Source of the DNA: a virus
Reading direction: 5' to 3' (one strand)
DNA: 64,000 nt
IMG/VR virus record: IMGVR_UViG_3300028025_003604
Location: 1 to 64,000 of that record
A program made the translations under genes and the position numbers. The notes beneath the pieces are model-generated. The model worked only from the letters and a program-made list of their open reading frames with translations. It made no database searches and had not been told where the DNA came from. How positions within the stretch are numbered: position 1 is the stretch's first letter; each line of letters starts with the position of its first letter. Shown here one piece after another: positions 1-12,360 of this stretch.

Positions 1-110
1 TCTGGTTTCCAAGTCGTGTCTTTAAATAACTTTATTCCGCTATCTGTTTCAATCTCGTCTTGAAACTTCTTTTCAATTTGTACGAATATCCTGTTGAATA
101 CGGGTTGCAT
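1..110 (-). CDS. GroES-like / phage co-chaperonin-like protein, N-terminal fragment
   Basis: An open frame starts at the ATG complementary to 108-110 and runs off the left edge, so only about 36 residues are seen. They begin MQPVFNRIFVQIEKKFQDEI and continue with an SGIKL-type stretch. This pattern (P-x-NRxxVxxxK, then SGI) resembles the first strands of GroES-type co-chaperonins and related small phage proteins. The function is inferred from this short stretch only, and the rest of the gene lies outside the window. Confidence 0.5.
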   Translation of the reverse strand, partial: MQPVFNRIFVQIEKKFQDEIETDSGIKLFKDTTWKP

Positions 111-129
111 AATATAAAGTTAGACATAA

Positions 130-146
130 CTCTCTATAATAGAGAG
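130..146. repeat. Perfect inverted repeat with a TATAAT-like centre
   Basis: CTCTCTAT-A-ATAGAGAG has 8-bp perfect arms around one base and lies between two minus-strand genes. It could be an operator or a hairpin. The related string TATAATAGAGAG recurs at about 2274, before the first plus-strand gene, and a similar TCTATAATAGAG occurs near 44128. Confidence 0.5.
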
Positions 147-164
147 AGGTTATGCACAGGAATA

Positions 165-290
165 TTAACAGCGACCTTGTCCCTGATACTTAGAAGTCTT
201 CTTGTCTTTTGGACCAGAACTCTTCTTAGCTTTCCCGCACTTGCGTTTACCAAATGAAACCTTAAAGGCTTCTCCTTTTACTTTTGCCAT
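165..290 (-). CDS. Small basic conserved phage protein (41 aa)
   Basis: The frame starts at the ATG complementary to 288-290 and ends with TAA at 165-167. The product is 41 residues and very rich in Lys, Arg, Gly and Ser, with a central SFGKRKCGKAKKS stretch and a YQGQGRC end. Small proteins of this FGKR...YxGQGR type are common in Bacteroidota phages and have no known function. The charge suggests nucleic-acid binding, which is inference. It lies in a run of short minus-strand genes. Confidence 0.6.
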   Translation of the reverse strand: MAKVKGEAFKVSFGKRKCGKAKKSSGPKDKKTSKYQGQGRC

Positions 291-323
291 AATGTATCGT
301 TTTAAGGATACATCTCGCGTAGG

Positions 324-587
324 CTATAAGCTCTTTGCTGCCTTCTTCAGGTTTGTTACAAAGACATTAAACTTCTTAATTTCTGCGGTATCGAGCTGGA
401 TGCTGTCAACCTTTACTGGTTCACCTTCTTCTGGGAGGAAGGCATAGATAACGAAGATGATCGCTTCTGTCCATAGACCTATAGTAAGGGCTAGATCTGC
501 GTAGCGGTTGTGGGTGATCTTCATCCAAGCGCCAAGGATAACTATTGCTGCTCCTAGACTGGTGATTGCGTTGATGGTTTTTTTCAT
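324..587 (-). CDS. GldL-like two-helix membrane protein (holin or membrane modulator candidate)
   Basis: The product has 87 residues. Residues about 8-23 and 34-50 are hydrophobic helices joined by a short KITHNRYADL segment, followed by an acidic EEGEP turn and a charged C-terminal tail. The layout (GAAIVILGAWMKI, then ADLxLxIGLxTEAIIF) closely resembles the N-terminal membrane domain of GldL, the inner-membrane motor subunit of Bacteroidota gliding and type IX secretion. The long cytoplasmic and periplasmic parts of GldL are missing. A phage might use it as a holin or to act on the host motor; both ideas are inference. The next gene (RyR protein) lies 10 nt upstream. Confidence 0.6.
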   Translation of the reverse strand: MKKTINAITSLGAAIVILGAWMKITHNRYADLALTIGLWTEAIIFVIYAFLPEEGEPVKVDSIQLDTAEIKKFNVFVTNLKKAAKSL

Positions 588-597
588 AGGGTTGGAT

Positions 598-939
598 TTA
601 TTTGTTTAAGCTATGCACTACCTGACGAAATAAAAAGTCTTTTGCTTTCTGTTCGTTTGGTAGAATTTCAAAAGGTACAATACAAGGATGCTGTTTCTTT
701 TCGGCATCTTTGACAGGACCATAAACCCATCCATCTTCTATCTTTTGTTTCATCCAGCTATTGTGAGAGGAATCAGGACCTGCGTCAGGATTCTCAATAT
801 GGAATATAACGCCTAACACTGCAGATTCTTTCTGCCATTGTGGTGCTTCTTCCCAGCTAGTTTGACTATTGTCTCCAATAGCTTCACAATAAGCCTTGTT
901 GATCTCGTGTGCAACTTGTGCGATTTGTTCTACTTTCAT
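598..939 (-). CDS. RyR-domain protein (113 aa)
   Basis: The protein matches the small RyR domain found in bacterial and phage proteins: W-x-x-AP-x-WQ at residues 29-36, then SSHNSWMxxKxxDGWVYGP, a KKxHPC motif and VPFEILPxxQKAKD, which are the most conserved positions. Length is typical for a single RyR domain. In phages these domains are predicted to recognise nucleotide-derived ligands, but no role is proven. The start is the ATG before KVEQIAQVAHEIN. It sits between the GldL-like gene and a zinc-ribbon gene. Confidence 0.85.
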   Translation of the reverse strand: MKVEQIAQVAHEINKAYCEAIGDNSQTSWEEAPQWQKESAVLGVIFHIENPDAGPDSSHNSWMKQKIEDGWVYGPVKDAEKKQHPCIVPFEILPNEQKAKDFLFRQVVHSLNK

Positions 940-956
940 TGGTGTTGGTTGATAGG

Positions 957-1151
957 TTATCTGTTTTTAGTTGGAGTTCTGATCGCTGCGGATTGAGGCA
1001 CCTCTTTCTTTTCAAGGTTGTTATAGTTCAAAACACTTGAACATGAGTTGCATTTAAACTTACTCTGTTTAATTTCGTCCTGCCAAGAGTACTCCTCTTG
1101 GACATGACCGCACTTGCACTTGTAAGTTCTCTTTCCGTAGCTGTTTCTCAT
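957..1151 (-). CDS. Zinc-ribbon protein (64 aa)
   Basis: Two CxC/CxxC pairs (KCKCGH near residue 10 and KCNSCSS near residue 33) form a typical zinc ribbon, followed by a polar tail. I take the ATG at 1151 rather than the in-frame TTG nine bases upstream. The sequence just before this ATG reads TATATTTG on the minus strand, which matches a Bacteroidota -7 box (TAnnTTTG) and could give an almost leaderless transcript. Function unknown; DNA or RNA binding is likely. Confidence 0.6.
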   Translation of the reverse strand: MRNSYGKRTYKCKCGHVQEEYSWQDEIKQSKFKCNSCSSVLNYNNLEKKEVPQSAAIRTPTKNR

Positions 1152-1236
1152 ATAATACAAATATACACCTATGCGTAGCCGTTAGGTTCAGAATGATATG
1201 TTAAGGGGATAGACTGTTAATAACTTATTGGAATTC

Positions 1237-1464
1237 TTAAAGAGCCATTACTTCATCTTTAATTTCCATTAATTCAAATCCTATTGCATTGGGTTTCAAT
1301 AACCCTTGTGCATTCATTTGATTATACATTTTAATCATCTCATCTACTGCTATTAAGGCGCATTGTTTAGCATCTTCATTAGCTTCCTCATCATACATTA
1401 AATTCGCCCTTAGATACATTGCATATTTTCCAAACAATTCGTCTGCCTTTTCTTTCGGTGTCAT
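1237..1464 (-). CDS. Small conserved phage protein, MTPKEKA family (75 aa)
   Basis: The start is placed at ATG 1464 because its A-T-G-A overlaps the TGA of the HNH gene, giving translational coupling; a longer reading would run into that gene. The sequence pattern MTPKEKADELF...AKQCALIAVDEMI is shared with the gene at 12088-12348, so the phage carries two paralogues. The family is common in Bacteroidota phages and has no known function. It is probably all-helical. Confidence 0.65.
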   Translation of the reverse strand: MTPKEKADELFGKYAMYLRANLMYDEEANEDAKQCALIAVDEMIKMYNQMNAQGLLKPNAIGFELMEIKDEVMAL

Positions 1465-1706
1465 ATTCTTTCTGCGTGTTTCGTCATCAAAAAATCTAGA
1501 TGGTGTTTTTTGTCGCCATATTCGACATGACATTCCCGGCACAGGGCCATAAGGTTCTCGATCTCGTCCTTACCTTTACCGCCACCCATTCCACGGGCCA
1601 CGATATGGTGGATGTCAACAGCTCTCTTCCTGCACACCTCACACGGAATAAAGTCATCCGCGCCATAGCCAAAATGATCTAAGTAGATCTTGGTGTGCTT
1701 CCTCAC
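1461..1706 (-). CDS. HNH endonuclease (81 aa)
   Basis: This is a compact HNH nuclease: a first zinc knuckle CEVC at residues 23-26, the catalytic DIHHIVARGMGG motif at 31-42, an ENLMALCRECH segment with the Asn and the second CxxC, and a final His. It probably starts at the GTG at 1706, whose GTGA overlaps the previous stop, and ends in the ATGA of the next gene. Phage HNH proteins of this size are either homing-type nickases or packaging helpers. It is far from terL here, so a mobile nuclease role is somewhat more likely. Confidence 0.8.
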   Translation of the reverse strand: MRKHTKIYLDHFGYGADDFIPCEVCRKRAVDIHHIVARGMGGGKGKDEIENLMALCRECHVEYGDKKHHLDFLMTKHAERI

Positions 1707-1894
1707 TTATCAATAAAAAGATTAATACTAAAGAACAGTAGACCCAGCTGGGTTACATTCGTAAGTCTTGGTTCACACTGACCACAGTCACACTGTTGCC
1801 AGCCGTCCCAATTTGATACGCCAACCAAAAATAAATTTGGGAAGAAGTCAATCTGCAAAAGGACACCGGGGAAAAGGGGTAAATCTATAGACAT
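1703..1894 (-). CDS. Hypothetical protein (63 aa)
   Basis: The open frame has an ATG at 1894 and a TGA that overlaps the GTG of the HNH gene, which supports its being translated. The product has a hydrophobic N-terminal half, a WDGWQQCDCGQCEP cluster with three Cys, and a hydrophobic C-terminal end. No family is recognised. It would be the first gene of the leftward accessory operon. Confidence 0.4.
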   Translation of the reverse strand: MSIDLPLFPGVLLQIDFFPNLFLVGVSNWDGWQQCDCGQCEPRLTNVTQLGLLFFSINLFIDK

Positions 1895-2307
1895 GTGGTA
1901 AAATTATCTATGTATCTATTCTAGAGAGGGTAAAAGACACCCTGAATTATCAATACAATTGAATACATATATCTGCTCCTAGATTCAGAGCCTTCTGAAC
2001 AAGGCTTCGCCTAAAAGCACTTGTATAAGAACAAGCACCCTTAAGCGAATATCTGCTCCCGAGTTCTTCACCCACGTCACGCAGCTCTAGTTACCTAGCA
2101 GGGAGTATGATCCCCGTCGCCCCTCATGTCAGCTTAAACATTCCAGTCCTCTGGATAAACATAGCTCGGCCTTTTTTAACTGGTAGCCATCCCATGAGGT
2201 AGAACCAGAATGCTAAATTACATCACCTATCTAATATAGGGTGCCAGTTATCCACAGCATGGGAATAACACAATATAATAGAGAGAAAGCAGTTTTATAT
2301 TTACATC
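1895..2307. other. Divergent non-coding region
   Basis: No convincing gene. It separates leftward genes from the rightward gene at 2308. Visible structure: hairpins AGGGT/ACCCT around 1926-1942 and AGCCTT/AAGGCT around 1990-2006; the word ATATCTGCTCC twice (about 1969 and 2048); a T-run after CTCGGCC near 2165-2180; and TATAAT at 2275-2280 before the start at 2308. It probably holds divergent promoters and possibly a structured RNA on the minus strand. Confidence 0.45.
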
Positions 2308-2481
2308 ATGAACGCCACAATAGAATATATCGATCAGGAAGGAGCTATAATAGCTTCTGTGTATGGTTCAGTTGGCGAGTCGATATATCTGAACGAATCG
2401 GAACTAAGATGGATCTATGAGTCTCTGAGGGCCCATTACAGCGATTGTGAAAAGACGGGGAAAACTGGACGTGAAAATTAA
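2308..2481 (+). CDS. Hypothetical protein (57 aa)
   Basis: ATG at 2308, TAA at 2479-2481. The product begins MNATIEYIDQEGAIIASVYG and has a short beta-rich first half and a helical SELRWIYESLRAHY segment. No family is recognised. It is the first rightward gene after the divergent region, with a TATAAT-like box about 30 bases upstream. Confidence 0.5.
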   Translation: MNATIEYIDQEGAIIASVYGSVGESIYLNESELRWIYESLRAHYSDCEKTGKTGREN

Positions 2482-2875
2482 AGGGGGATGTGTGGTCGAG
2501 GAGGGTGGGTTATACCATATTTCCGGTGGCCACCGACCCAAACGCGAACTCGAAAACGGCAACCGAGTGGGGGTCAAAAAGGCGATTTTGAATTCGAAAA
2601 AGGGCCTGCAAACTTACCCCGTGTTAGTTGCCTGACAATCGGAAAACCAATGCAGGCTTACGTTTCAGCCATGGGGGTGTGGGAGTGTGTCAGAAAATTG
2701 TGTCAGTCAGGATAGAAAAAGGAAACGAACTAGGGCCATTGCGGTATGGAATGTACGTACGTGTACGCGTAACCGCAGAATCCTAGTAACCCCCTTCCCC
2801 TTCCAACAATCCGTAAACCCTATCAATTACCATCCGTAAAACAACCCATAAATCAACCCGTAAAGGAACCATCCG
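2482..2875. other. G/C-rich non-coding stretch with repeats
   Basis: Base use differs from the neighbours (runs of GGGGG and CCCCC). Contents: GTGTCAGAAAATT at 2687 and GTGTCAG at 2700, a word that returns beside the integrase; an alternating TACGTACGTGTACGCGTA string at about 2754-2771; and the CCGTAAA series listed separately. A 75-codon frame at 2488-2715 exists but has no supporting features. This could be a control or origin region. Confidence 0.4.
2811..2864 (+). repeat. Three phased CCGTAAA iterons before the winged-helix gene
   Basis: CCGTAAA occurs at 2811-2817, 2834-2840 and 2858-2864, spaced 23 and 24 bp (about two helical turns). A degenerate CCATAAA lies midway at about 2846. 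Phased repeats just before a regulator gene (ATG 2876) suggest an operator array; a replication-iteron role is possible. Confidence 0.5.
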
Positions 2876-3202
2876 ATGAAGATAGAGAAGTACATATTCT
2901 GCCTGCCAAAAGCAATCCGGTTAGCATCCACCCGCACCGGTATATCTAGGCCATTGTACCCCACTGAACTCTTCCTCCTTTATGCCCTCAAGCGCCTACC
3001 TTCCCCGTGTACCCAATCACACCTCCAAAGGTTCTGCGCTAACGTCTATAATCCGCTTACCCTTACCACCATCCACAAAGGTCTTATGTACCTCTTGGAG
3101 CAGGAACTCATCGATCGAAAATTGAAGTCTTATTCTCTTTCCCCTCTTGGCAGAGAATACCTTTCACACATACGACAATATCTTATTAATGTCCGTCTCT
3201 AG
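2876..3202 (+). CDS. Winged-helix regulator-like protein (108 aa)
   Basis: The first helix segment PTELFLLYALKRL is followed by SHLQRFCANV...TTIHKGLMYLLEQELI and SYSLSPLGREYLSHI. This is the usual helix-turn-helix plus wing layout of small phage winged-helix proteins: helix, recognition helix, leader helix ending in LI, then an SxTxxG-type wing. The phased CCGTAAA repeats end 12 bp before the start, so autoregulation is plausible. It is followed by a terminator, making it a one-gene transcript. Confidence 0.55.
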   Translation: MKIEKYIFCLPKAIRLASTRTGISRPLYPTELFLLYALKRLPSPCTQSHLQRFCANVYNPLTLTTIHKGLMYLLEQELIDRKLKSYSLSPLGREYLSHIRQYLINVRL

Positions 3203-3250
3203 TCTCTTATATACTATGAGAACTACTATACCCCCGAGCTGCCCACTTTT

Positions 3251-3270
3251 GGGCAATCAGGCCCGTTTTT
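3251..3270 (+). terminator. Intrinsic terminator after the winged-helix gene
   Basis: GGGC (3251-3254), AATCAG loop, GCCC (3261-3264), then GTTTTT. An alternative stem uses GCCC at 3241-3244. A CCCCCGAGCTG motif abuts it at 3231-3241. Confidence 0.55.
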
Positions 3271-3394
3271 AATCCTTTTCCTATTTCGTTTACCCAAGCA
3301 CGTTAGTAAAAATGTGGATAACTTTTTATCTCTTACTCTCCCAAGGGTTTGAGCCTGCTAAATCTGTTTAGCAGAGGCCTAATTTAAAAATTTA

Positions 3395-3427
3395 TTTGGA
3401 AGCGATTATCCATTGACGTTAGTTTTG
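3395..3427 (+). promoter_or_regulatory. Bacteroidota-type promoter for the ribozyme operon
   Basis: TTTG at 3395-3398 and TAGTTTTG at 3420-3427 match the Bacteroidota -33 and -7 (TAnnTTTG) boxes with a 21-bp spacer. Transcription would start near 3434, giving a leader of about 490 nt before the first ORF at 3924. Confidence 0.55.
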
Positions 3428-3433
3428 TGTCTC

Positions 3434-3857
3434 AATTCGGGGATGAAGTTTCCCGATGCTCTTTGAAAGGTTGGTTACTGAATTCTGCAAAACGGCAGTG
3501 GGAGTAAAGGTGCGACTAGCTTCGGCGTAAAGTCTAAATGGAACCACATAACAAAAGCCCTCGGGCAAGCCCTACCACACCATAGGCAATGAACAGGATT
3601 CGCCTACCACCTTTCGGTTCTTTGAAATTATCGGCGCGAAAGTTTTACATGCGATGCTCTTCACCGGAGCTAACGATGGACATCGGCCCTGCCCCTTACA
3701 CGGGAGCAACCCACAAACAAGCAACACCCCGCTAACCACGGCCTAGTCACTTGCTACCCATCTTACCCCTTACATGTAACACGAGTAACCCACCCATCGC
3801 CTTCAGGTCTGATTTATCGTCCTGATGTTTAGCGTAGTCTTGAGGCTAATGGGTTGG
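3434..3857 (+). ncRNA. Long structured leader RNA (candidate)
   Basis: No ORF fits this stretch, but local stems are dense: TCGGG/CCCGA near 3437-3457; TTACT/AGTAA enclosing CTGC/GCAG at about 3475-3518; GACT/AGTC around an AGC-TTCG-GC tetraloop near 3513-3532; GCCC/GGGC near 3557; TAGGC/GCCTA enclosing AAT/ATT at about 3583-3606; CGATG/CATCG near 3673-3685. It lies between a good promoter and the type III hammerhead, so it would be released by self-cleavage after C3863 as an RNA of about 430 nt. I cannot assign it to a known large phage RNA family. Confidence 0.5.
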
Positions 3858-3912
3858 ATGGTCTAGCGGTAATAACTCCCGCTACTGATGAGACGCAGAA
3901 CGTCGAAACCAT
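3858..3912 (+). ncRNA. Hammerhead ribozyme, type III
   Basis: All conserved core parts are present. Stem III is ATGGT 3858-3862 with ACCAT 3908-3912. The cleavage site is GTC ending at C3863. Stem I is TAGCGG 3864-3869 with CCGCTA 3879-3884. CTGATGA is at 3885-3891, stem II GACG/CGTC at 3892-3895 and 3901-3904, and GAAA at 3905-3908. Stem III is the open end, hence type III. Self-cleavage after C3863 would release the upstream leader RNA and leave the ribozyme body on the 5' end of the mRNA for the next gene (ATG 3924). Confidence 0.85.
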
Positions 3913-3923
3913 AATCATACATC

Positions 3924-4097
3924 ATGAAAAACTTTATTTCAATCATCAAATTTTACTTATTAATCGCCTTGCTTAACCCATTCACCCTTGCCGGTTTAAT
4001 TTCCGGCTGCCACGGGTTTACATTCTTTGGCTTTGTGGTATCTGCCCTTGCTTGTAGTGTCTTCTTCCTAGGTGGAGGAGTTAAAGCGTTCAAATAA
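3924..4097 (+). CDS. Small membrane protein (57 aa)
   Basis: The protein begins MKNFISIIKFYLLIALLNPF and has two hydrophobic helices (about residues 5-25 and 30-50) joined at a GCHGF turn, ending in GGGVKAFK. It is the first ORF of the ribozyme-punctuated operon, 11 nt after the type III hammerhead, and is followed by a CCCCCGAGCTG motif and the first type I hammerhead. The function is unknown; a membrane-acting early protein is the simplest guess. Confidence 0.55.
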   Translation: MKNFISIIKFYLLIALLNPFTLAGLISGCHGFTFFGFVVSALACSVFFLGGGVKAFK

Positions 4098-4117
4098 TTC
4101 CCCCGAGCTGCTCACAA

Positions 4118-4169
4118 GATTAACTGATGAGGGTTTAATACCCGAAACATCCTTCGGGATGTCTTAATC
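4118..4169 (+). ncRNA. Hammerhead ribozyme, type I (copy 1)
   Basis: Stem I GATTAA 4118-4123 pairs TTAATC 4164-4169; CTGATGA 4124-4130; stem II GGGT/ACCC 4131-4134 and 4140-4143; GAAA 4144-4147; stem III CATCC-TTCG-GGATG 4148-4161; cleavage after GTC (C4163). Every core base is intact. The 3' product would start at T4164, leaving a 19-nt leader with a 5'-OH before ATG 4183. A CCCCCGAGCTG motif lies at 4100-4110. Confidence 0.93.
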
Positions 4170-4182
4170 AAAAAACACCACC

Positions 4183-4350
4183 ATGAAAGTTGAACTAAAA
4201 GAGAGAGAAGTATACGGAAAAGTGCTTCTGTACCCTAAAAACATTAACGCCTGCATTTTTGCTGATTTAATTGGCAAAAAGACATTCGACCAACTAGACC
4301 TCTTCCACATACAACAACTAGGATACGAGGTTGAAATCATTAAACTATAA
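4183..4350 (+). CDS. Hypothetical protein (55 aa)
   Basis: The ATG lies 19 nt after a predicted hammerhead cleavage site. The product starts MKVELKEREVYGKVLLYPKN and is a mix of short strands and a FDQLDLFHIQQLGYEV segment, similar in feel to many phage early regulators. No family is recognised. The next gene begins 11 nt downstream without a ribozyme between them. Confidence 0.6.
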   Translation: MKVELKEREVYGKVLLYPKNINACIFADLIGKKTFDQLDLFHIQQLGYEVEIIKL

Positions 4351-4360
4351 AAGCACTAAC

Positions 4361-4567
4361 ATGTACGCAAAATTATCAATGGTGATTGCATCACACCTAA
4401 GCGATGCGCAGCACGACTTTGAATCAGGTAATGATAAGCACGGGCACTACCGCTTAAACTTCATCAAATTGCTAGTACTTCAAAACCAAAGTTTAGATAA
4501 AGAGGTCAATGAAGAGTATCTGTGGAAGGTATGGAAAGAGTGCGAAGTTGGGGCTCCAAAAGATTAA
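4361..4567 (+). CDS. Hypothetical protein (68 aa)
   Basis: I place the start at ATG 4361 (MYAKLSMVIASHL), since an upstream in-frame TTG lies inside the preceding gene. The protein looks all-helical. Its last codons, GAT-TAA, are also the 5' strand of stem I of the following hammerhead, so a terminating ribosome would sit on the ribozyme. Confidence 0.6.
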   Translation: MYAKLSMVIASHLSDAQHDFESGNDKHGHYRLNFIKLLVLQNQSLDKEVNEEYLWKVWKECEVGAPKD

Positions 4568-4613
4568 CTGATGAGGATTCAATATCCGAAACCTGCTCCG
4601 GCAGGTCTTAATC
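4562..4613 (+). ncRNA. Hammerhead ribozyme, type I (copy 2)
   Basis: Stem I GATTAA 4562-4567 (containing the TAA stop of the upstream gene) with TTAATC 4608-4613; CTGATGA 4568-4574; stem II GGAT/ATCC 4575-4578 and 4584-4587; GAAA 4588-4591; stem III CCTGC-TCCG-GCAGG 4592-4605; cleavage after C4607. Stems II and III differ in sequence from copies 1 and 3 but keep pairing. The 3' product has a 20-nt leader before ATG 4628. Confidence 0.93.
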
Positions 4614-4627
4614 AAAAAAATTTTACC

Positions 4628-4966
4628 ATGGAAACCTTACAAATCAAAAAAATTACCGGCCTAACTGAACTTGAGAAAAAAGTATTAACTGCGCTAGTTG
4701 ATGGCATGTATGCAGAATGGGGATTCAGCGATGTTGGAGCTACCGACCTTTCTGAATCTACCGGCATACCAAATAAGTCTATTCGCGGCGTAATTGGTTC
4801 GCTAGTTAAGAAGGGTCTAGTTTATGTGGATGACCGCACTGACATGTGTGACTACCGCAGCAATGACCCTGCATGGGAGCCCATCATATACCTGCAAAAC
4901 GATGCCGAAGCATTGGTACCTAATTGGCAAGAGCAGATAGGCTTCAAATCTGTTATCGAAGATTAA
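4628..4966 (+). CDS. Winged-helix DNA-binding protein (112 aa)
   Basis: The start is ATG 4628; an in-frame ATG at 4571 lies inside the hammerhead core and cannot be the true start. Residues about 10-58 form a winged-helix unit: LTELEKKVLTALVDG, then ATDLSESTGIPNKSIRGVIGSLVKKGLV, where the TGIPNKSIRGVI helix would be the recognition helix. The tail has Trp-rich segments. It is probably a transcription regulator. Its terminal GAT-TAA is shared with stem I of the next hammerhead. Confidence 0.65.
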   Translation: METLQIKKITGLTELEKKVLTALVDGMYAEWGFSDVGATDLSESTGIPNKSIRGVIGSLVKKGLVYVDDRTDMCDYRSNDPAWEPIIYLQNDAEALVPNWQEQIGFKSVIED

Positions 4967-5010
4967 CTGATGAGACTTAATTAGTCGAAACGCCTTCGGG
5001 CGTCTTAATC
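4961..5010 (+). ncRNA. Hammerhead ribozyme, type I (copy 3)
   Basis: Stem I GATTAA 4961-4966 (with the upstream stop codon) and TTAATC 5005-5010; CTGATGA 4967-4973; stem II GACT/AGTC 4974-4977 and 4983-4986; GAAA 4987-4990; stem III CGCC-TTCG-GGCG 4991-5002; cleavage after C5004. A 19-nt leader remains before ATG 5024. Stem I is the same in all three type I copies while stems II and III covary. Confidence 0.93.
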
Positions 5011-5023
5011 AAAATCCAATCCC

Positions 5024-5260
5024 ATGAATGTTATTTTAGTCTCTCGAGACGGCATACTAGATACGCCGGTACTCGTGAAGCAGAACACCACGGCAGAAGC
5101 CACCTTTGAATCCATTGTTCGCGACCTCCTAGGTGAAGACGCCGATGATATAAACTTCTTTTGCGATACTGCCATCGATAAGGTTAACAACTACCTCAAG
5201 CCTTCCGGTATCACCATCTCTTGGTTTGTCGATATTGACGTAAACAACTATAAAAACTAA
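5024..5260 (+). CDS. Hypothetical protein (78 aa)
   Basis: ATG 5024 follows hammerhead copy 3. The product has a beta strand start (MNVILVSRDG), a helical TFESIVRDLLGEDADDINFF centre and a beta end (GITISWFVDIDV). The layout recalls small ferredoxin-like or anti-host proteins, but no family is recognised. It is followed three nucleotides later by a tiny membrane-peptide gene. Confidence 0.6.
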   Translation: MNVILVSRDGILDTPVLVKQNTTAEATFESIVRDLLGEDADDINFFCDTAIDKVNNYLKPSGITISWFVDIDVNNYKN

Positions 5261-5263
5261 ATC

Positions 5264-5335
5264 ATGAAAAGCACAACTACCGCTATCATCATTGTCATTG
5301 TCTTCTTGTTAATCACCCTAGCAGATAACATATGA
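5264..5335 (+). CDS. Tiny membrane peptide (23 aa)
   Basis: MKSTTTAIIIVIVFLLITLA plus DNI: one hydrophobic helix with a charged N-terminus. Its TGA overlaps the ATG of the next gene (ATGA), and it starts 3 nt after the previous stop, so it is placed as a coupled gene. Function unknown. Confidence 0.45.
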   Translation: MKSTTTAIIIVIVFLLITLADNI

Positions 5336-5496
5336 GAAAAGTATATTTTTTCAGCTATCAACTAGCTGATGGGAACGAAATACTCTGCGCTATTAAGACT
5401 TGCATATATCCTGAACGGACCAAAATATGGAAGCGCCTCTTAACCCTTGTTATTAACAGAGAGGACGTAGTAAGTATTAAGTACTCCCTAGAATAG
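5332..5496 (+). CDS. Hypothetical protein (54 aa)
   Basis: Starts in the ATGA overlap with the 23-aa peptide gene and ends with TAG at 5494-5496. The product is basic, with a central CIYPERTKIWKRLL segment. No family is recognised. A CCCCCGAACTG motif and the first non-hammerhead leader follow five nucleotides later. Confidence 0.5.
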   Translation: MRKVYFFSYQLADGNEILCAIKTCIYPERTKIWKRLLTLVINREDVVSIKYSLE

Positions 5497-5500
5497 TTTA

Positions 5501-5560
5501 CCCCCGAACTGCCCCCATACCGATGGCATCCGGTTCGTGACCGGAGGCAGTCCTAATCAA
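5501..5560 (+). ncRNA. Structured leader, three-way junction form (copy d)
   Basis: CCCCCGA 5501-5507, then a closing stem ACTGCC 5508-5513 / GGCAGT 5546-5551 with two inner hairpins: CCAT-ACCG-ATGG at 5515-5526 and CCGGT-TCGTG-ACCGG at 5530-5544. The 3' flank CTAATCAAAA matches the tail left after hammerhead cleavage. It has the same topology as a type I hammerhead but no CTGATGA or GAAA core. ATG 5573 follows 21 nt after the closing stem. Confidence 0.6.
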
Positions 5561-5572
5561 AATCCAAACCAC

Positions 5573-5839
5573 ATGAACTATCAACAAATCAAAGCCGCTC
5601 AGAAGGAGCAGGGCTACGACCAATGGCAACACATCATCAACACCGGCCATGCATGGAAGACGGAGGGCGCTATAGGACGCGAGGCAATGCACTTGCTAGA
5701 ATCCGGCGCATGTATGCTTCCCAAGACTGCCTTCCAAGACTACTATGGCAACAGAATCCCATCACGTGACGACCTCAAGGCCGGAACTAAAGGGACCTTC
5801 CAAAACTCAGTAAACTATTACACTAACAATGCTTGGTAA
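5573..5839 (+). CDS. Hypothetical protein (88 aa)
   Basis: The start is ATG 5573 (MNYQQIKAAQKEQGYDQWQ); a longer reading from 5537 would begin inside the RNA leader. The protein is helical, Gln- and Trp-containing, with LKAGTKGTF near the end. It resembles small phage early proteins without a known function. Confidence 0.6.
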   Translation: MNYQQIKAAQKEQGYDQWQHIINTGHAWKTEGAIGREAMHLLESGACMLPKTAFQDYYGNRIPSRDDLKAGTKGTFQNSVNYYTNNAW

Positions 5840-5859
5840 CAGGCGCAACTATTAACACT

Positions 5860-6072
5860 ATGGAAAAAGTAACCTTCGAATTTCACCCCTACGTCCAAGA
5901 CTCTTGGGATTGCATGATTTCAATTCACAGAGGGAACGAACTTGTTGTTCAGTACAAATTTCAGGCGCACATTATTGATGGGGATATTCAATTTGACCTT
6001 GACCCAGAATATGCTTACAACCCGCCTCAACGATACCTATCATTTATCACTTCAACCTTATTAAATCGATAA
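5860..6072 (+). CDS. Hypothetical protein (70 aa)
   Basis: ATG 5860 is preferred over an upstream in-frame ATG because that lies in the previous gene. The product begins MEKVTFEFHPYVQDSW and is beta-rich in the first 50 residues. No family is recognised. It is closely followed by the next gene (4 nt). Confidence 0.55.
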   Translation: MEKVTFEFHPYVQDSWDCMISIHRGNELVVQYKFQAHIIDGDIQFDLDPEYAYNPPQRYLSFITSTLLNR

Positions 6073-6076
6073 CACT

Positions 6077-6304
6077 ATGAAAAAGAATCTAACCGCAGAA
6101 ATGCTATTAAACGAATTGCTTGATATGAAAGCAAAGCACTACGACCTGTCTAAAATTGAACTAAGCTATCGTTTCGACCCTGATAGTGACGTAGAACCAA
6201 TCACCTATGTTGGTGAAGGTCTCTTCGATGCAGATACTAACAATGTTCTAGAAGAACTTGTATTTATGACCGATGCGTCTGAATACGAAGGAGAGGGAAT
6301 ATAA
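6077..6304 (+). CDS. Hypothetical acidic protein (75 aa)
   Basis: The product is strongly acidic, with a helical first half (LTAEMLLNELLDMKAKHYDL) and a DPDSDVEP turn, ending in EYEGEGI. The acidity could suit a DNA-mimic or an inhibitor, but that is speculation. Structured leader e follows its stop. Confidence 0.55.
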   Translation: MKKNLTAEMLLNELLDMKAKHYDLSKIELSYRFDPDSDVEPITYVGEGLFDADTNNVLEELVFMTDASEYEGEGI

Positions 6305-6313
6305 CCTCCACCC

Positions 6314-6354
6314 AACCTACCGCCATGGGCGTGGGCTTCGATGCCGAGTAGGTT
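6314..6354 (+). ncRNA. Structured leader, three-way junction form (copy e)
   Basis: Closing stem AACCTAC 6314-6320 / GTAGGTT 6348-6354 with inner hairpins CGCC-ATG-GGCG (6321-6331) and GGC-TTCGAT-GCC (6334-6345). The flank CTCATCAAAA resembles the other leaders. This is the only copy without a preceding CCCCCGA. ATG 6375 follows 20 nt later. Confidence 0.5.
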
Positions 6355-6374
6355 CTCATCAAAACTCAAACAAC

Positions 6375-6536
6375 ATGCAACAACAAGCATCAAAAACACG
6401 TAGCCACTTTGTACTATCTCTAGCTAAAAGTTTCTTAAGAGCCGGAGCATGTGTATGGCTTTACCTAGGCGACTATCAAGTAGCTGCCGGACTATTCTTA
6501 ATCGCCGAAACCTTCGGTATTCTAGAAGAACTTTAA
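6375..6536 (+). CDS. Small membrane protein (53 aa)
   Basis: The start at ATG 6375 lies just after leader e. A polar N-terminus (MQQQASKTRSHF) precedes a hydrophobic region from about residue 13 to 48, broken by GDYQ, so one or two helices. No family is recognised; a host-membrane-acting early protein is possible. Confidence 0.55.
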   Translation: MQQQASKTRSHFVLSLAKSFLRAGACVWLYLGDYQVAAGLFLIAETFGILEEL

Positions 6537-6546
6537 AAACTAAATC

Positions 6547-6741
6547 ATGAGAAACAGAATCCACCCACCAATCTACTCTGTCAAGCCTAGTGGCCTAATC
6601 ATCAAGCGCTGCAATAAACTGAGCGCATATGCAAGAAGGATGGAAGTATTGAAGGAACTCGGACTCGACGTAAAGGAATACGCCAAAGAGTGCAAGCTAA
6701 GGTCCTTATTCAGGATGCAGGCTGCAGGTCTTCTAGCATAA
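6547..6741 (+). CDS. Hypothetical basic protein (64 aa)
   Basis: ATG 6547 has the local ACTAAATC leader context. The product is basic, with SAYARRMEVLKELGLDVKEY forming a helix-turn-helix-sized unit. DNA binding is possible but unproven. Leader f begins directly after its stop. Confidence 0.55.
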   Translation: MRNRIHPPIYSVKPSGLIIKRCNKLSAYARRMEVLKELGLDVKEYAKECKLRSLFRMQAAGLLA

Positions 6742-6743
6742 TA

Positions 6744-6804
6744 CCCCCGAGCTAGTAGGAATGACCGAAACCGGAGCGATACCGGTACTAGCTCCTCATT
6801 AAAA
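6744..6804 (+). ncRNA. Structured leader, conserved-loop form (copy f)
   Basis: CCCCCGA 6744-6750 overlaps stem GAGCTAGT 6749-6756 / ACTAGCTC 6787-6794. The internal strand AGGAATGACCGAA (6757-6769) is followed by hairpin ACCGG-AGCGATA-CCGGT (6770-6786). Copy g has the same unpaired bases on different stems, which is covariation in a real RNA. ATG 6813 lies 18 nt after the closing stem. Confidence 0.7.
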
Positions 6805-6812
6805 CCTCAAAC

Positions 6813-7034
6813 ATGGATTACCCTTTAGAACTAAAAAAATATCTAGCTAGTAAGATGGCTAAGGTAGATGTTGAATGCATGGGAGTAGACTTCCAACAAG
6901 CATATGAATACCATTTAGCCAACGACCCATTTACCCTCCTTGAATATTGGGCCGAATACTTCGGAGCATTTGACGACATGGGCGAAAACTTATTCATGGA
7001 GCTAAGCCCTGAGTCTATAGCAAAAAATAAATAA
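6813..7034 (+). CDS. Hypothetical protein (73 aa)
   Basis: ATG 6813 follows leader f. The product is helical and acidic, with a YWAEYFGAFDDMGENLF core. No family is recognised. A TAAATAAGATAGT spacer separates it from leader g. Confidence 0.55.
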   Translation: MDYPLELKKYLASKMAKVDVECMGVDFQQAYEYHLANDPFTLLEYWAEYFGAFDDMGENLFMELSPESIAKNK

Positions 7035-7040
7035 GATAGT

Positions 7041-7100
7041 CCCCCGAACTGCGAGGTATGACCGAAGTAGGAGCGAAACCTACCGCAGTTGCTAATCAAA
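7041..7100 (+). ncRNA. Structured leader, conserved-loop form (copy g)
   Basis: CCCCCGA 7041-7047; stem AACTGCG 7047-7053 / CGCAGTT 7084-7090; internal strand AGGTATGACCGAA 7054-7066; hairpin GTAGG-AGCGAAA-CCTAC 7067-7083; flank CTAATCAAAA. Against copy f both stems are completely changed yet still pair, while the internal strand and loop differ at only one base each. The next ATG (7135) is 44 nt away, the longest spacing in the set. Confidence 0.7.
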
Positions 7101-7134
7101 AACTCAAGAGCGAGAGTCCAAACGCACCAAACCT

Positions 7135-7479
7135 ATGTCAACTACTACAACATCAACCTTACAGATGCACGTCTTCACATTAGACAACGCACTAAGCTAC
7201 CTGAAAGAAAATTTACAAACAGACACAGACTTCAGCGGTGATAATGGCCCTGAGTTTCTAGATGATGACGCCGATGGATACGATTCAAATTTAGAGTACT
7301 ACCTAGAAATGTTTTGGTCGAAGCACAAGCCGAAAGATGAAAAGACCCTGAATAATTTCTTCTTAAAGTTTTTTCAGTTCATGCAGAAGAGGGACCAATA
7401 CTATTCAAACATTGAGTTCGACCTTAAGTTTATTGGCGACCAAATAGTTTTAGCAGTGATGATGGAATGTGATTGCTAG
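7135..7479 (+). CDS. Hypothetical acidic protein (114 aa)
   Basis: Start at ATG 7135 in an AAACCTATG context. The product is acidic, with a DNGPEFLDDDADGYDSN patch and a helical, aromatic C-terminal half (NNFFLKFFQFMQKRDQYY). No family is recognised. Confidence 0.55.
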   Translation: MSTTTTSTLQMHVFTLDNALSYLKENLQTDTDFSGDNGPEFLDDDADGYDSNLEYYLEMFWSKHKPKDEKTLNNFFLKFFQFMQKRDQYYSNIEFDLKFIGDQIVLAVMMECDC

Positions 7480-7481
7480 AA

Positions 7482-7540
7482 CCCCTGAGCCGAGAGAGTG
7501 GATAAGGCAGAGCGATACTGCCCTCGGTTCCTAAATCCCA
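7482..7540 (+). ncRNA. Structured leader, conserved-loop form (copy h)
   Basis: CCCCTGA variant at 7482-7488; stem GAGCCGAG 7487-7494 / CTCGGTTC 7523-7530 with one G-T pair; internal strand AGAGTGGATAA 7495-7505; hairpin GGCAG-AGCGATA-CTGCC 7506-7522. The AGCGATA loop equals copy f while the stems differ. ATG 7546 follows 15 nt later. Confidence 0.65.
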
Positions 7541-7545
7541 AACCT

Positions 7546-8091
7546 ATGAGCCTACAAGACGCGGTAATCACCGCAGAAAAAAATGGTGGAGTCTCTTACA
7601 ACCTTCACCATGGGTACATGAATCCTGAGACCGGATACATGGTATCCCTAGCAGGAAGAGAGAGGCAGTCGCCATCACTCACCTATCACAACGTCCTCGG
7701 TTTTGTAAACGACAACATTGAAGCATTCGAGCCCACAACCTTCTTAGGCCTATGGCAGGAAGAAGGGACGTGGATAATGGATGTGTCTTTATGCATCCCG
7801 ACACTAGCGACTGCGCTGCGGGTTGCGGAATCAAATGGCCAACGTGCCATCTACGACAATGCTAACAAAAAATCTATATACCTAAACCCTAACCGCATGG
7901 AAGAGCTAATCGAACAAATCAAGCAGCATGACTTTTGGTACATGATGTCCGAAGACTCAAGAGTATTTGACCAAGGTAAAGAGACCCAGAAATCGATCGA
8001 AGAGGGGCTTAAAAATTACCCTAAAGAAGAGGTCCTGAATAATCTACCCGAACACCTTCACGAATTTATAAAATCTATCTATGGCGCATAA
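7546..8091 (+). CDS. Hypothetical protein (181 aa)
   Basis: I choose ATG 7546 because the upstream in-frame GTG at 7498 lies inside leader h. The protein starts MSLQDAVITAEKNGGVSYNL, a pattern seen in small phage proteins with an N-terminal SLxxAV-A motif, then has a GLWQEEGTWIMDVS strand pair and a long helical C-terminal half. Function unknown. It overlaps the next gene by 11 nt. Confidence 0.6.
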   Translation: MSLQDAVITAEKNGGVSYNLHHGYMNPETGYMVSLAGRERQSPSLTYHNVLGFVNDNIEAFEPTTFLGLWQEEGTWIMDVSLCIPTLATALRVAESNGQRAIYDNANKKSIYLNPNRMEELIEQIKQHDFWYMMSEDSRVFDQGKETQKSIEEGLKNYPKEEVLNNLPEHLHEFIKSIYGA

Positions 8092-8299
8092 ACTAACAGG
8101 CGTAGAGCTCTACAATAGCGAGCTCAAGCGCAAGACAAAAGTATACGACGTTGCAAACAAAAAACTAATCGCTGAATTCGAAAGCGTGTGGGCTGCCTCC
8201 AACTACACCGGAGTCAAATGTAGTTACATCACCCAGTGTATGAGTAAGAAGTACCGCTCACATACAAATCGCCTAGGCATAACAATCACCTTCAGATGA
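8081..8299 (+). CDS. NUMOD1-like DNA-binding protein (72 aa)
   Basis: Residues about 18-60 (VYDVANKKLIAEFESVWAAS, then YTGVKCSYITQC) fit the NUMOD1-type helix-turn-helix that is normally fused to homing nucleases: strand, Sx-AA helix, recognition helix. No nuclease domain is attached or encoded next to it. It may be a relic of a homing endonuclease or a free-standing DNA-binding protein. Translation is coupled to the previous gene by overlap. Confidence 0.55.
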   Translation: MAHKLTGVELYNSELKRKTKVYDVANKKLIAEFESVWAASNYTGVKCSYITQCMSKKYRSHTNRLGITITFR

Positions 8300-8379
8300 T
8301 AACACTACTAATCGTTCCTATTGCACTTGCTATCCTTATTGGTAACAATGCACTTAGTCCTGAATCTAATTTAGACTAA
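8296..8379 (+). CDS. Tiny membrane peptide (27 aa)
   Basis: MITLLIVPIALAILIGNNAL plus SPESNLD: one hydrophobic helix with a polar tail. Its ATGA overlaps the previous stop. It ends one base before the CCCCCGAACCG of leader i. Function unknown. Confidence 0.4.
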   Translation: MITLLIVPIALAILIGNNALSPESNLD

Positions 8380-8436
8380 CCCCCGAACCGGAAACCTAAC
8401 GAGGTTATGGTATTCGCTCTACCTCCGGTTCCTAAA
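8380..8436 (+). ncRNA. Structured leader, three-way junction form (copy i)
   Basis: CCCCCGA 8380-8386; closing stem GAACCGGA 8385-8392 / TCCGGTTC 8424-8431; hairpins AACCT-AACG-AGGTT 8393-8406 and GGTA-TTCGCTC-TACC 8409-8423; flank CTAAACC. Three helices meet as in a type I hammerhead but the catalytic core is absent. ATG 8445 follows 13 nt after the closing stem. Confidence 0.6.
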
Positions 8437-8444
8437 CCTACTTT

Positions 8445-8546
8445 ATGAAAAAGTTTAATTGGACCTTCTTAATTGCATGGACAACTATCCTCACCATAAC
8501 ATACATGTTGTGGTCATTCATCTTTAAACTAATATCCTACATATGA
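8445..8546 (+). CDS. Small membrane protein (33 aa)
   Basis: MKKFNWTFLIAWTTILTITY, then a second hydrophobic stretch and an ISYI end: a single helix with a positively charged start. Its stop overlaps the next ATG (ATGA at 8543). It is the last gene preceded by a structured leader. Confidence 0.45.
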   Translation: MKKFNWTFLIAWTTILTITYMLWSFIFKLISYI

Positions 8547-8782
8547 AAAGTACATTTCAACAAGTGATGGATGCAATAAATAACGGCGAAAAATTCTCAT
8601 GGAATTTTAACGGCCTTACTGCATTCAGAAACACCGACAGGTTAGTTCATGAAATACCTAACCCAACCGAGGCGTCCATTGGATGGATACTTCAAGAGTT
8701 CTGCGTTAAAGCATTATACGATGCTGATTTATTAATCTCCTTCGAGCCATCACCTGAAGGGTTAAAAATATATTACAAATGA
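8543..8782 (+). CDS. Hypothetical protein (79 aa)
   Basis: Coupled to the previous gene by ATGA. MKSTFQQVMDAINNGEKFSW is followed by short strands and a GWILQEFCVKALYDADLL helix. No family is recognised. Confidence 0.55.
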   Translation: MKSTFQQVMDAINNGEKFSWNFNGLTAFRNTDRLVHEIPNPTEASIGWILQEFCVKALYDADLLISFEPSPEGLKIYYK

Positions 8783-8997
8783 GAACTACCTACCCAACAG
8801 AAACCCTATCATTCAACGATTGGATTATCTACATCCATAAAGAAAACATCCGTATTAGAATTCAAAAACTAAACCACTATGAACAAAATCTCGGCAGCAA
8901 AAAAAGTGTTTCACACTATCAACGAAGAATTGGACAAGGTACTATTGGGGGAAGAAAGTTCCCGCCGATTGGTTGTGCAGAAATTGAAATTGATTAA
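8779..8997 (+). CDS. Doubtful ORF (72 aa) overlapping the next gene
   Basis: It starts in an ATGA overlap with the previous stop, which favours translation, but its last 119 nt overlap the better-supported gene at 8879 in another frame. The first 36 residues (MRTTYPTETLSFNDWIIYIH...) look protein-like, while the rest is low-quality. It may be a short or decaying gene. Confidence 0.3.
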   Translation: MRTTYPTETLSFNDWIIYIHKENIRIRIQKLNHYEQNLGSKKSVSHYQRRIGQGTIGGRKFPPIGCAEIEID

Positions 8998-9070
8998 TGA
9001 GGAACTATCCGATGCAGTAATTGACCTATTGAAAAAAAATGTAACCTATGAACAAGAGCGAAGTATTTAA
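8879..9070 (+). CDS. Hypothetical helical protein (63 aa)
   Basis: The start context AAACTAAACCACTATG is typical here. The product is almost entirely helical with heptad-like spacing (FHTINEELDKVLLG, then KLKLINEELSDAVIDLL), suggesting a coiled coil. It overlaps the DnaA-like gene by 23 nt, implying coupled translation. Confidence 0.5.
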   Translation: MNKISAAKKVFHTINEELDKVLLGEESSRRLVVQKLKLINEELSDAVIDLLKKNVTYEQERSI

Positions 9071-9398
9071 TGGCCTATGTGAGTATGCAGTTGAAGTTAC
9101 CGGTATCGATATAAGGTACGCCAAAGGAAGACGTGAAGAGTATGTAAGGCTCAGGGCCGCTATCATGGTTATCCTTATGAACTACTACGGAGTCACCACT
9201 ACATTGGCCGGACACTTTTTTAATCGCGACCACACCACGGCAGTACACCACAAAGCAAATCACCCATGGCGATATAAGTCCGACGATGAATACGCCTATC
9301 TGTATGATGAGTTGGTGAAGCACGTTTTACTATGTAAAAGAAATCAAGTAGACCTAGATGTACAAGAGGTACTCGAGTACATTAAATTAATTGGTTAG
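9048..9398 (+). CDS. DnaA domain IV-like DNA-binding protein (116 aa)
   Basis: The sequence matches the C-terminal DnaA-box-binding domain: a basic GRREEYVRLRAAIMVILM helix, then a helix-turn-helix with FFNRDHTTAVHH, nearly the DnaA signature GRDHTTVxHA. No AAA+ domain is present and 116 residues is only slightly longer than the domain. Stand-alone versions occur in phages and are thought to bind the host origin or phage origin; the target here is unknown. It sits just before the tRNA-like cluster. Confidence 0.75.
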   Translation: MNKSEVFNGLCEYAVEVTGIDIRYAKGRREEYVRLRAAIMVILMNYYGVTTTLAGHFFNRDHTTAVHHKANHPWRYKSDDEYAYLYDELVKHVLLCKRNQVDLDVQEVLEYIKLIG

Positions 9399-9404
9399 TG
9401 AATA

Positions 9405-9492
9405 ATGCGGGTAGCTTAATGGTCACAATGGAAGTGACCCTTGAGGGAGGAAAGCGCTTAAATGAGATGTGGGTTCGATTCCCATCCCGCGT
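9405..9492 (+). tRNA. tRNA-like gene 1, anticodon not assignable by eye
   Basis: Acceptor ATGCGGG 9405-9411 pairs CCCGCGT 9486-9492. The T arm GTGGG-TTCGATT-CCCAT is perfect. The 5' part (TAGCTTAATGG) looks like a D arm, yet the central region instead folds as GGTCAC-AATGGAA-GTGACC (9421-9438), a strong stem with a 7-nt loop lacking U33. No CCA is encoded. It may be an unusual, degenerate or non-decoding tRNA. Confidence 0.6.
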
Positions 9493-9719
9493 TCATAAAT
9501 ATAAAAGTTGGCGAGGTGAGATACCTTGATTACACCTGAGCAGGATGGTGGCCAATGGATGCTGCTAGTTATTAAGCCTATAGGATGAAATACCCTTGTA
9601 CCGATGCCTTGCGGTTGGGTTAGACAAAGTTTTCTTGCGTTGCGGGTTCTATTAGGCGTTTTTTCATATCCCGTTAAAGAAAGCAAAGGGGCTTATGGTT
9701 GTGCCAGAACAACCAACAT
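9493..9719 (+). other. Non-coding spacer between tRNA-like genes, with a possible pseudoknot
   Basis: No gene seen. Near 9508-9563, TTGGC pairs GCCAA, AGGTG pairs CACCT inside it, and AGCAG pairs CTGCT across the closing strand, which would form a pseudoknot. HDV-like (theta) ribozymes are known beside phage tRNAs, but the strand order here does not clearly fit that fold. Confidence 0.35.
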
Positions 9720-9812
9720 AGTCAGGTCGCTCAAATTTTGGGAGCACATGCATCATTGTGTGTTCAATACAAGTCTGCTTAGGCTTGTGCAGGTTCGAAT
9801 CCTGTCCTGACT
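9720..9812 (+). tRNA. tRNA-like gene 2 with long variable arm
   Basis: Acceptor AGTCAGG 9720-9726 / CCTGACT 9806-9812; D arm GCTC-GAGC 9729-9732 and 9742-9745; T arm GCAGG-TTCGAAT-CCTGT 9789-9805; a variable-arm stem ACAAG/CTTGT 9769-9788. The anticodon stem would be CACAT/GTGTG with an 8-nt loop GCATCATT, one base too long; TCAT within it would give CAT. Class II shape with that anticodon is abnormal, so identity is open. Confidence 0.6.
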
Positions 9813-9898
9813 ACAAACTTATGCACAGAGTTATTCATGTAAGTATTTATACTGAATGTAACGCTCTTGCATAAACGTAGATTTGTAAAAAACAACCT

Positions 9899-10123
9899 AT
9901 GAACCAAACAACAAACCATTCGTCTGAAACGCTTAATATAACATGTGCTTATCCAAAAACTCAAACTGAATTTTCGTATGTAAGCGCTTCTCACCATAGT
10001 GTAATCGTTATAGTAAGCTCACTATATCAAAAGCTATCAGACAAAGAAAAGTTGGAAATGCTTTCTAAATTAAATGATTGGACTTACAATGAAGCACTTA
10101 AAATTTTTAACCAAACCCAATAA
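9899..10123 (+). CDS. Hypothetical protein (74 aa)
   Basis: Start in ACAACCTATG context. A polar, Thr/Ser-rich N-terminal half is followed by a helical LYQKLSDKEKLEMLSKLNDW segment. No family is recognised. It lies between tRNA-like genes 2 and 3. Confidence 0.5.
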   Translation: MNQTTNHSSETLNITCAYPKTQTEFSYVSASHHSVIVIVSSLYQKLSDKEKLEMLSKLNDWTYNEALKIFNQTQ

Positions 10124-10126
10124 TAT

Positions 10127-10375
10127 ATGGAACCACAAACCATCGAGCAACCATGCTCCCAAGAGCCTATCGCCTCAGTAGAGTATACTCCAACAAAGCA
10201 GGAGGCATTACGGCAGTATGAAATTAGAATAGAATTCCTATCAAGAGGATGTATTGTTCGTGTAGGCTGTAAGTCTATACCTTTTGAGAGTGTAGATGCA
10301 GCAATGAAATGCTTAAGCGAGTATGTAAAAGACCCTATCACCAAAGAAAAAGAGTGGGTGAAAATCTTAAATTAA
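10127..10375 (+). CDS. Hypothetical protein (82 aa)
   Basis: Only 3 nt after the previous gene. The polar N-terminus is followed by alternating strands (YEIRIEFLSRGCIVRVGC) and a helix with AMKCLSEYVKDP. The compact alpha-beta layout, with Cys residues, is seen in many small phage proteins of unknown role. Confidence 0.5.
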   Translation: MEPQTIEQPCSQEPIASVEYTPTKQEALRQYEIRIEFLSRGCIVRVGCKSIPFESVDAAMKCLSEYVKDPITKEKEWVKILN

Positions 10376-10382
10376 AGATGTT

Positions 10383-10512
10383 AGTCAGGTGGCGGAATTG
10401 ATAGACGCTAAGTTAAGTTTACACACGAGATGCGACCTCATTAAAAGCTATAACGATGAGTTTAAATTGGTTCAGAGAACCACCTCTTGCAGGTTCGAAT
10501 CCTGCCCTGACT
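10383..10512 (+). tRNA. tRNA-Leu-like gene interrupted by about 40 nt
   Basis: Acceptor AGTCAGG 10383-10389 / CCTGACT 10506-10512 and T arm GCAGG-TTCGAAT-CCTGC 10489-10505 are perfect. The D arm GGCGGAATTGATAGACGC and variable arm GGTT-CAGAG-AACC are classic tRNA-Leu. The total of 130 nt is about 40 too long. The excess is in the anticodon arm, where an extra hairpin CTCAT/ATGAG (10438-10460 region) lies between candidate half-stems AAGTT and AAATT. It could be a small intron, a degenerate tRNA or a misfold on my part; UAA is the likely anticodon. Confidence 0.6.
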
Positions 10513-10526
10513 ACAAAAAGTAGCGT

Positions 10527-11147: not shown

Positions 11148-11491
11148 AAACCGCAATGCAAGAATTAATCTTTCACATAGCATATATGGAAAGAAGAAAG
11201 TATCAAGATGAGCAAACACAGATACTTGGAGGTATGAATGATTGTATTATGTATGATGCCATCGTTATTCAAAATAGAATCATTGAAGAATTAACTAAAG
11301 AGTATTCTGAATATCTTGAAAAAGAAAAGGAGCAGATAGTAAATGATTTTGAAAATGGTTACAAGGCCTGCGATTTAGATGAAGCATTGGAGATAAATAA
11401 AACAATGTTTAGCGGAGAAAGGTATTACGAACAAACCTATAAACAATACGGCTTAGATAATGAGGCTAGACAAATTTTAAATAACCTATAA
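11144..11491 (+). CDS. Hypothetical coiled-coil protein (115 aa)
   Basis: ATG 11144 in ATGA overlap is preferred to an in-frame start inside the preceding gene. The protein is helical and charged, with EELTKEYSEYLEKEKEQIV forming a likely coiled coil. No family is recognised. Confidence 0.55.
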   Translation: MKTAMQELIFHIAYMERRKYQDEQTQILGGMNDCIMYDAIVIQNRIIEELTKEYSEYLEKEKEQIVNDFENGYKACDLDEALEINKTMFSGERYYEQTYKQYGLDNEARQILNNL

Positions 11492-11505
11492 CCAAAAAAA
11501 TAACT

Positions 11506-11697: not shown

Positions 11698-11700
11698 CCA

Positions 11701-11844: not shown

Positions 11845-11847
11845 CCT

Positions 11848-12084: not shown

Positions 12085-12087
12085 CCT

Positions 12088-12348: not shown

Positions 12349-12360
12349 ACCCAATAACCT

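Follow-up and report, generated by a model that had tools for sequence, protein, structure and literature searches.

Genome and early region

The window, the whole 64,000-nucleotide stretch of DNA that was analyzed, lies in an IMG/VR virus record of 65,922 bases. Its genes include those for terminase, portal, integrase, Erf, a RecE-like protein and primase/helicase. The terminase is approximately 30% identical to those of the Flavobacterium phages among the hits listed. A query with the integrase for close relatives of the phage gave no match. A search of deposited phages turned up no similar early region; L193 matched single genes only.

The features of the early region are summarized in Table 1. 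On the + strand of positions 1-13500, TTTG N17-22 TANNTTTG is matched by the promoter at 3395 and nowhere else, and a Bacteroidota-type promoter of this form (TTTG...TANNTTTG) is similarly placed, upstream of a type III hammerhead, in contigs L100, L186, L177, L199 and L192. Downstream of the promoter, small ORFs come first, followed by recombination and primase genes, an order which makes the 'early operon' of the original prediction plausible. The untranslated leader of about 430 nt is partly conserved in L100, L177, L192, L051 and L186, with 81% identity over 248 nt to L100 and 76% over 114 nt to L177. It matched no Rfam family and may be an uncharacterised structured RNA that is released by the ribozyme. 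Unusual tRNA genes, which have long insertions or lack a defined anticodon, are found between genes further down the operon (9405-9493, 9720-9814 and 10380-10515) and may serve as further punctuation.

Table 1. Early-region features of the window, followed by occurrences of a third boundary element on two other contigs
Feature	Position	Strand	Remarks
Bacteroidota-type promoter, TTTGG-N-TAGTTTTG	3395..3427	+	pattern match
Untranslated leader, promoter to first predicted cut	3430..3863	+	partly conserved in related phages
Type III hammerhead, first array element, predicted cut after C3863	3858..3912	+	11 nt before ATG 3924
Small ORF, 57 aa	3924..4097	+	no Pfam family
Type I hammerhead, predicted cut after C4163	4118..4169	+	leader 19 nt to ATG 4183; R1 73.5 bits, E 4.6e-16
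Small ORF, 55 aa	4183..4350	+	
Small ORF, 68 aa	4361..4567	+	stop is TAA of next stem I
Type I hammerhead, predicted cut after C4607	4562..4613	+	leader 20 nt to ATG 4628
ORF, 112 aa, TrmB-like winged helix	4628..4966	+	PF01978, 6.2e-8; stop in next stem I
Type I hammerhead, predicted cut after C5004	4961..5010	+	leader 19 nt to ATG 5024
tRNA-like element 1 (acceptor-like stem, D-like hairpin, T-like arm, loop UUCGUGA)	5506..5552	+	before ATG 5573
tRNA-like element 2 (divergent; T-like loop UUCGAUG)	6314..6354	+	before ATG 6375; 23.3 bits, E 0.0055
tRNA-like element 3	6749..6794	+	before ATG 6813; 73.7 bits
tRNA-like element 4	7046..7091	+	before ATG 7135; 70 bits
tRNA-like element 5	7487..7530	+	before ATG 7546; 51.1 bits
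tRNA-like element 6	8385..8431	+	before ATG 8445; 41.7 bits
Third boundary element, L042	2277-2340, 2632-2698, 4878-4949, 5930-5999, 6498-6560		
Third boundary element, L047	5616-5699	reverse complement	

Hammerhead ribozymes of the window

Scanned for the core plus its stems, the 64 kb of the window yielded four hammerheads and no more, each of them on the + strand, compared with an average of 0.02 on a Markov-shuffled strand. These are the cores, one of type III and three of type I, that had been predicted from the letters of this DNA, and the predicted cut sites and the leaders of 19-20 nt are located as claimed. In all four copies CUGANGA, GAAA and UH at the cut site join three stems, and the sites are GUC. 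The type I copies were also correctly described as sharing an identical stem I (GATTAA/TTAATC), with stems II and III that differ and still pair. An energy model of the single strand did not place the active fold at the minimum for two of the four (4100-4185 and 3846-3926).

Hits above Rfam thresholds had been set beforehand as a test, and none of the four copies reached a gathering threshold; at a relaxed threshold the type III copy scored 26.4 bits versus 48.5 and one type I copy 23.5 versus 34. The copies in 15 related hammerhead loci all fell below the gathering score as well, which is a curated detection threshold and does not define the structure. Since these recurrent copies fail gathering and yet covary strongly, the threshold is a poor test here, and its use as a refutation of the hammerheads was dropped.

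Hammerheads on related contigs

IMG/VR was searched with a seed pattern that consisted of stem I and the core letters only and demanded no pairing in stems II and III. It matched 37 stretches of viral DNA, and all 42 distinct matches pair in stem II (at least 4 bp) and in stem III (at least 5 bp). A second version of stem I, GGTTAA/TTAACC, added at least 120 stretches. A model, R1, was built from 62 type I copies, in which 99.7% of cells pair and 231 double changes occur versus 59 in shuffles, the rows being biased towards pairing by their origin in a scan that required the stems; both sides changed in 13 of the 15 pairs. The catalytic core is nearly invariant across type I copies, and loop II is A/U-rich with one nearly invariant A. 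Searching whole contigs with R1 gave 102 copies in 35 contigs, of which 22 carry two or more and the richest nine. Nine hammerheads are packed into 5.8 kb on a contig that had been binned with a metagenome-assembled genome of Aliivibrio. The type III scan gave 21 matches with varied stems, among them one likely false call (L064).

The comparative evidence is decisive in favor of the window hammerheads, and a chance origin is ruled out by the shuffle expectation together with stem pairing in relatives. Two Mucilaginibacter genomes have one hammerhead each; among 295 genomes from the class to which this genus belongs, the hammerhead model matched only the Mucilaginibacter genome used as centre.

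Several variants of the boundary were observed. Leaders resembling Shine-Dalgarno sequences follow the cut of the same hammerhead in L014, L016, L017, L018, L026, L028 and L035, and the device is for this reason not considered confined to phages of Bacteroidota. An extra small hairpin (AGGCGAAAGCC or AGTCGAAAGAC), which covaries, is inserted between cut and ATG in L010, L031, L034, L037 and L039. Boundary elements of a third kind, in phages that carry hammerheads, are composed of a GC-rich hairpin, a U run and NGCGGUA or GGUAGA ahead of the next ATG; they resemble a terminator whose tail is conserved.

tRNA-like elements

Beyond the hammerheads noted earlier, six tRNA-like elements extend the array of the window and occupy the same slot at gene boundaries. 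The motif CCCC(C/T)GA opens five further boundaries of the operon (5501, 6744, 7041, 7482 and 8380), with a predicted fold in which a helix encloses two hairpins at four of them and one hairpin at 7482. The architecture comprises an acceptor-like stem (GAACUGC/GCAGUUC), a short part that is either D-loop-like or a hairpin, and a T-like arm that directly abuts the 3' strand of the acceptor. As in tRNA, an acceptor stem of about 7 bp adjoins a T-arm with a 7-nt loop, and the stack amounts to 13 bp. On the 3' side the acceptor-like stem is followed mostly by C and then UMA, with neither CCA nor a purine discriminator, and the elements are therefore named tRNA-like and not tRNA. The anticodon arm is absent from all aligned copies, so the elements cannot decode.

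The T-like loops include UUCGAUU (19 copies), AGCGAUA (17) and UUCGACU (15). In 35 of 103 copies GTTCGANTC is present, 33 of these also having the D-loop-like ATGGT or ATTGGA. The central junction varies in sequence and even in form. The T-like arm, which the seed pattern did not fix, covaries, and the whole structure shows 94 double changes versus 26. Pairing reaches 97% in a further 62 copies outside the seed pattern, which were found by the model and by that selection lean towards pairing; they show 180 double changes versus 61 in the highest shuffle, and both helices covary among them. No Rfam family matched the element, and ARAGORN reported no tRNA at the aligned copies. The initial proposals for the CCCCCGA element, namely a reverse-orientable DNA site, an integron-like site or a new ribozyme, were dropped in view of the many copies with GGTTCGANTCC T-arms.

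Within the 64 kb of the window, R2, the model of the tRNA-like element, found only six copies, which all lie between 5495 and 8445 on the + strand. Among related contigs it gave 132 matches in 27 of 28, with 1-9 copies each and mostly in clusters on one strand; the counts are not all independent, because near-duplicate contigs are included. Type I hammerheads are also present in 9 of these 28 contigs. In the 295 genomes from the class that includes Mucilaginibacter, R2 found none, which is weak evidence, as few candidates were scored per genome.

A related motif, ACCCCCGARCY, overlaps the 5' flank of the tRNA-like element and occurs genome-wide in the window (3231, 5501, 6744, 8380, 13753, 28933, 39284, 44051 and 49831), on one strand only (9 to 0) whatever the gene direction. 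It is over-represented and often strand-biased in other phages that bear tRNA-like elements; three hammerhead-only contigs have none. The motif may be Chi-like or operator-like or have some other role.

Gene boundaries, array order and natural exchange

Placement was evaluated for 234 distinct type I and 103 distinct tRNA-like copies with respect to ORFs of at least 30 aa and an ATG within 80 nt. Such an ATG follows the cut in 222 type I copies (median 22 nt, quartiles 20-26) and lies near 100 tRNA-like elements (median 19 nt), compared with 34% of random positions. An upstream stop codon lies near 210 type I copies, compared with 28% of random positions, and is most often within stem I (GAT-TAA), as in ORFs 4361-4567 and 4628-4966 of the window. 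The stop codon before a tRNA-like element is usually 6-7 nt away. The leaders after tRNA-like elements in the window, e.g. CTAATCAAAA, resemble the hammerhead leader TTAATCAAAA.

The recurring order of the array is type III, type I and tRNA-like. With III, I and T for the three kinds and the number of copies appended, the window has III I3 T6, L051 has III I T5, L100 has III I T4, and L053 and L186 both have III T7. Two contigs depart from this order, L199 with III T I T3 and L187 with its single hammerhead in last place; other arrays of the set have tRNA-like elements only. A gene located behind a tRNA-like element in L193 shares 79% identity with the one behind the hammerhead of L051; in L055 and L100, genes that precede tRNA-like elements share 71-73% identity with the one that precedes the hammerhead of L187. 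Judged by these gene pairs, a tRNA-like element replaces a hammerhead at homologous gene boundaries. Function can be approached from this natural exchange, because a second element seems to do the same job at homologous boundaries.

Proposed processing of the operon

The region from 3395 to approximately 8500, likely continuing further, is read with considerable confidence as the early operon of a Bacteroidota phage, with one promoter and two kinds of RNA-processing element. The whole operon would be transcribed from the single promoter at 3395. The type III hammerhead would free the first gene from the untranslated leader, and the three type I hammerheads would cut between genes, so that the upstream mRNA would end in stems II and III with a 2',3'-cyclic phosphate, while the downstream mRNA would begin with a 5'-hydroxyl on a short A-rich leader (UUAAUCAAAA...AUG). 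The structures, covariation, placement, order and natural exchange are observed; we infer hammerhead self-cleavage from the intact catalytic core and from relatives that were tested.

Further downstream the anticodon-less tRNA-like elements would occupy the same slot. Host RNase P would most likely cut on their 5' side (between CCCCC and GAAC), and/or RNase Z would cut after the first unpaired C on their 3' side, and the leader left behind would be similar in length and sequence (UMAUCAAAA...AUG). The nuclease acting on these elements is thus probably host RNase P and/or RNase Z, which is less certain than cleavage by the hammerheads. RNase P at the 5' border is the best guess, because it cleaves model substrates composed of acceptor, T-stem and T-loop at the canonical site and also acts on phage M3 RNA, C4 RNA of P1/P7, some mRNAs and polycistronic RNAs (PMC11143913). 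Recognition by either enzyme is uncertain because no CCA is encoded, the discriminator is mostly C and the stack has 13 bp. The conserved CCCCC of the 5' flank, also part of the genome-wide motif, may have another role.

The C at the discriminator position and the lack of a CCA end, together with a compact fold immediately past the stop codon, would also suit elements that remain uncut, as folded spacers that block exonucleases or insulate mRNAs, with cutting left to the hammerheads only. This reading is unlikely: a hammerhead in the same place at homologous boundaries, with a leader of similar sequence and length, suits a cut that forms an end, and one third of the elements keep T-loop and D-loop signatures of tRNA which a mere roadblock would not need. 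It is still less probable that the elements are modular linkers kept by recombination for the swapping of genes, with RNA cleavage secondary or absent. The genes between them do differ widely among phages, and the 5' half of the hammerhead (GATTAACTGATGA) has stops in two frames, with stops often in stem I; against this stand the nearly invariant catalytic core and the compensatory changes in stems II and III and in the T-like arm, which indicate that RNA pairing was selected and not DNA identity. That the tRNA-like elements form a new class of self-cleaving ribozyme, resembling tRNA by coincidence or ancestry, is very doubtful, for although they share the hammerhead slot, have a three-way-junction shape and similar size and match no Rfam family, their central junction varies in sequence and form, unlike a catalytic core, and the conserved acceptor-like helix and T-like loop are determinants of RNase P.

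The boldest reading, judged somewhat more likely than not, is that a group of uncultivated phages, probably of Bacteroidota, divides its early operon by two unrelated and interchangeable RNA-cutting devices in the recurrent order type III hammerhead, type I hammerheads and serial anticodon-less tRNA mimics that would recruit host RNase P and/or RNase Z.

Relation to known systems and significance

In mitochondrial transcripts, RNase P and RNase Z free the mRNAs by excising the tRNAs that separate the genes. Unlike this tRNA punctuation, the phage marks have no anticodon arm and share their operon with self-cleaving ribozymes. They resemble the acceptor/T-arm model substrates and the tRNA-like half of tmRNA in having an acceptor-like helix on a T-arm and no anticodon arm, and differ from the known RNase P substrates (model substrates, M3, C4 and tmRNA) in that they lack CCA, occur serially and lie at a fixed distance from the ATG. 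No report of tRNA-like punctuation in phages was found in the open-licence literature.

The hammerheads have the core CUGANGA...GAAA...UH and the same stem permutations as Rfam families RF00163 (Hammerhead_1), RF00008 (Hammerhead_3) and RF03152 (RAGATH-1-hammerhead). Unlike members of these families, the phage copies score below the gathering thresholds, and Rfam annotation therefore misses this phage group. Clusters of two or three prophage hammerheads flanking single genes were described by Perreault et al. in 2011, who proposed processing into operon- or gene-length mRNAs and reported cleavage of a triple cluster of A. tumefaciens in vitro and in E. coli (PMC3088659). Clustered prophage hammerheads and the idea of cutting the transcript are thus already known. 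The identity of the hammerheads and the division of the mRNA into gene-sized pieces, both part of the original prediction, are well supported by comparison of sequences; its statement that serial arrays are undescribed was wrong, because that study had reported both the clustering and the transcript cutting. Compared with those clusters, the present arrays reach nine hammerheads per contig, often begin with type III, are intermixed with tRNA-like elements, and have a recurrent short type I form in which the upstream stop is often part of stem I (GATTAA/TTAATC or GGTTAA/TTAACC). Judged by the literature that could be searched, what is new is how long the arrays are, the fixed geometry of stop, stem I and leader, and the mixing and exchange with tRNA-like elements.

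Phage hammerheads, whose purpose has so far been unclear, are given a concrete and testable role as operon punctuation with a fixed leader geometry. If confirmed, the findings would bring tRNA punctuation into phage biology, in a viral form that is free of decoding, would add one more RNA family to annotate, and would provide compact parts with which polycistronic messages could be split in Bacteroidota.
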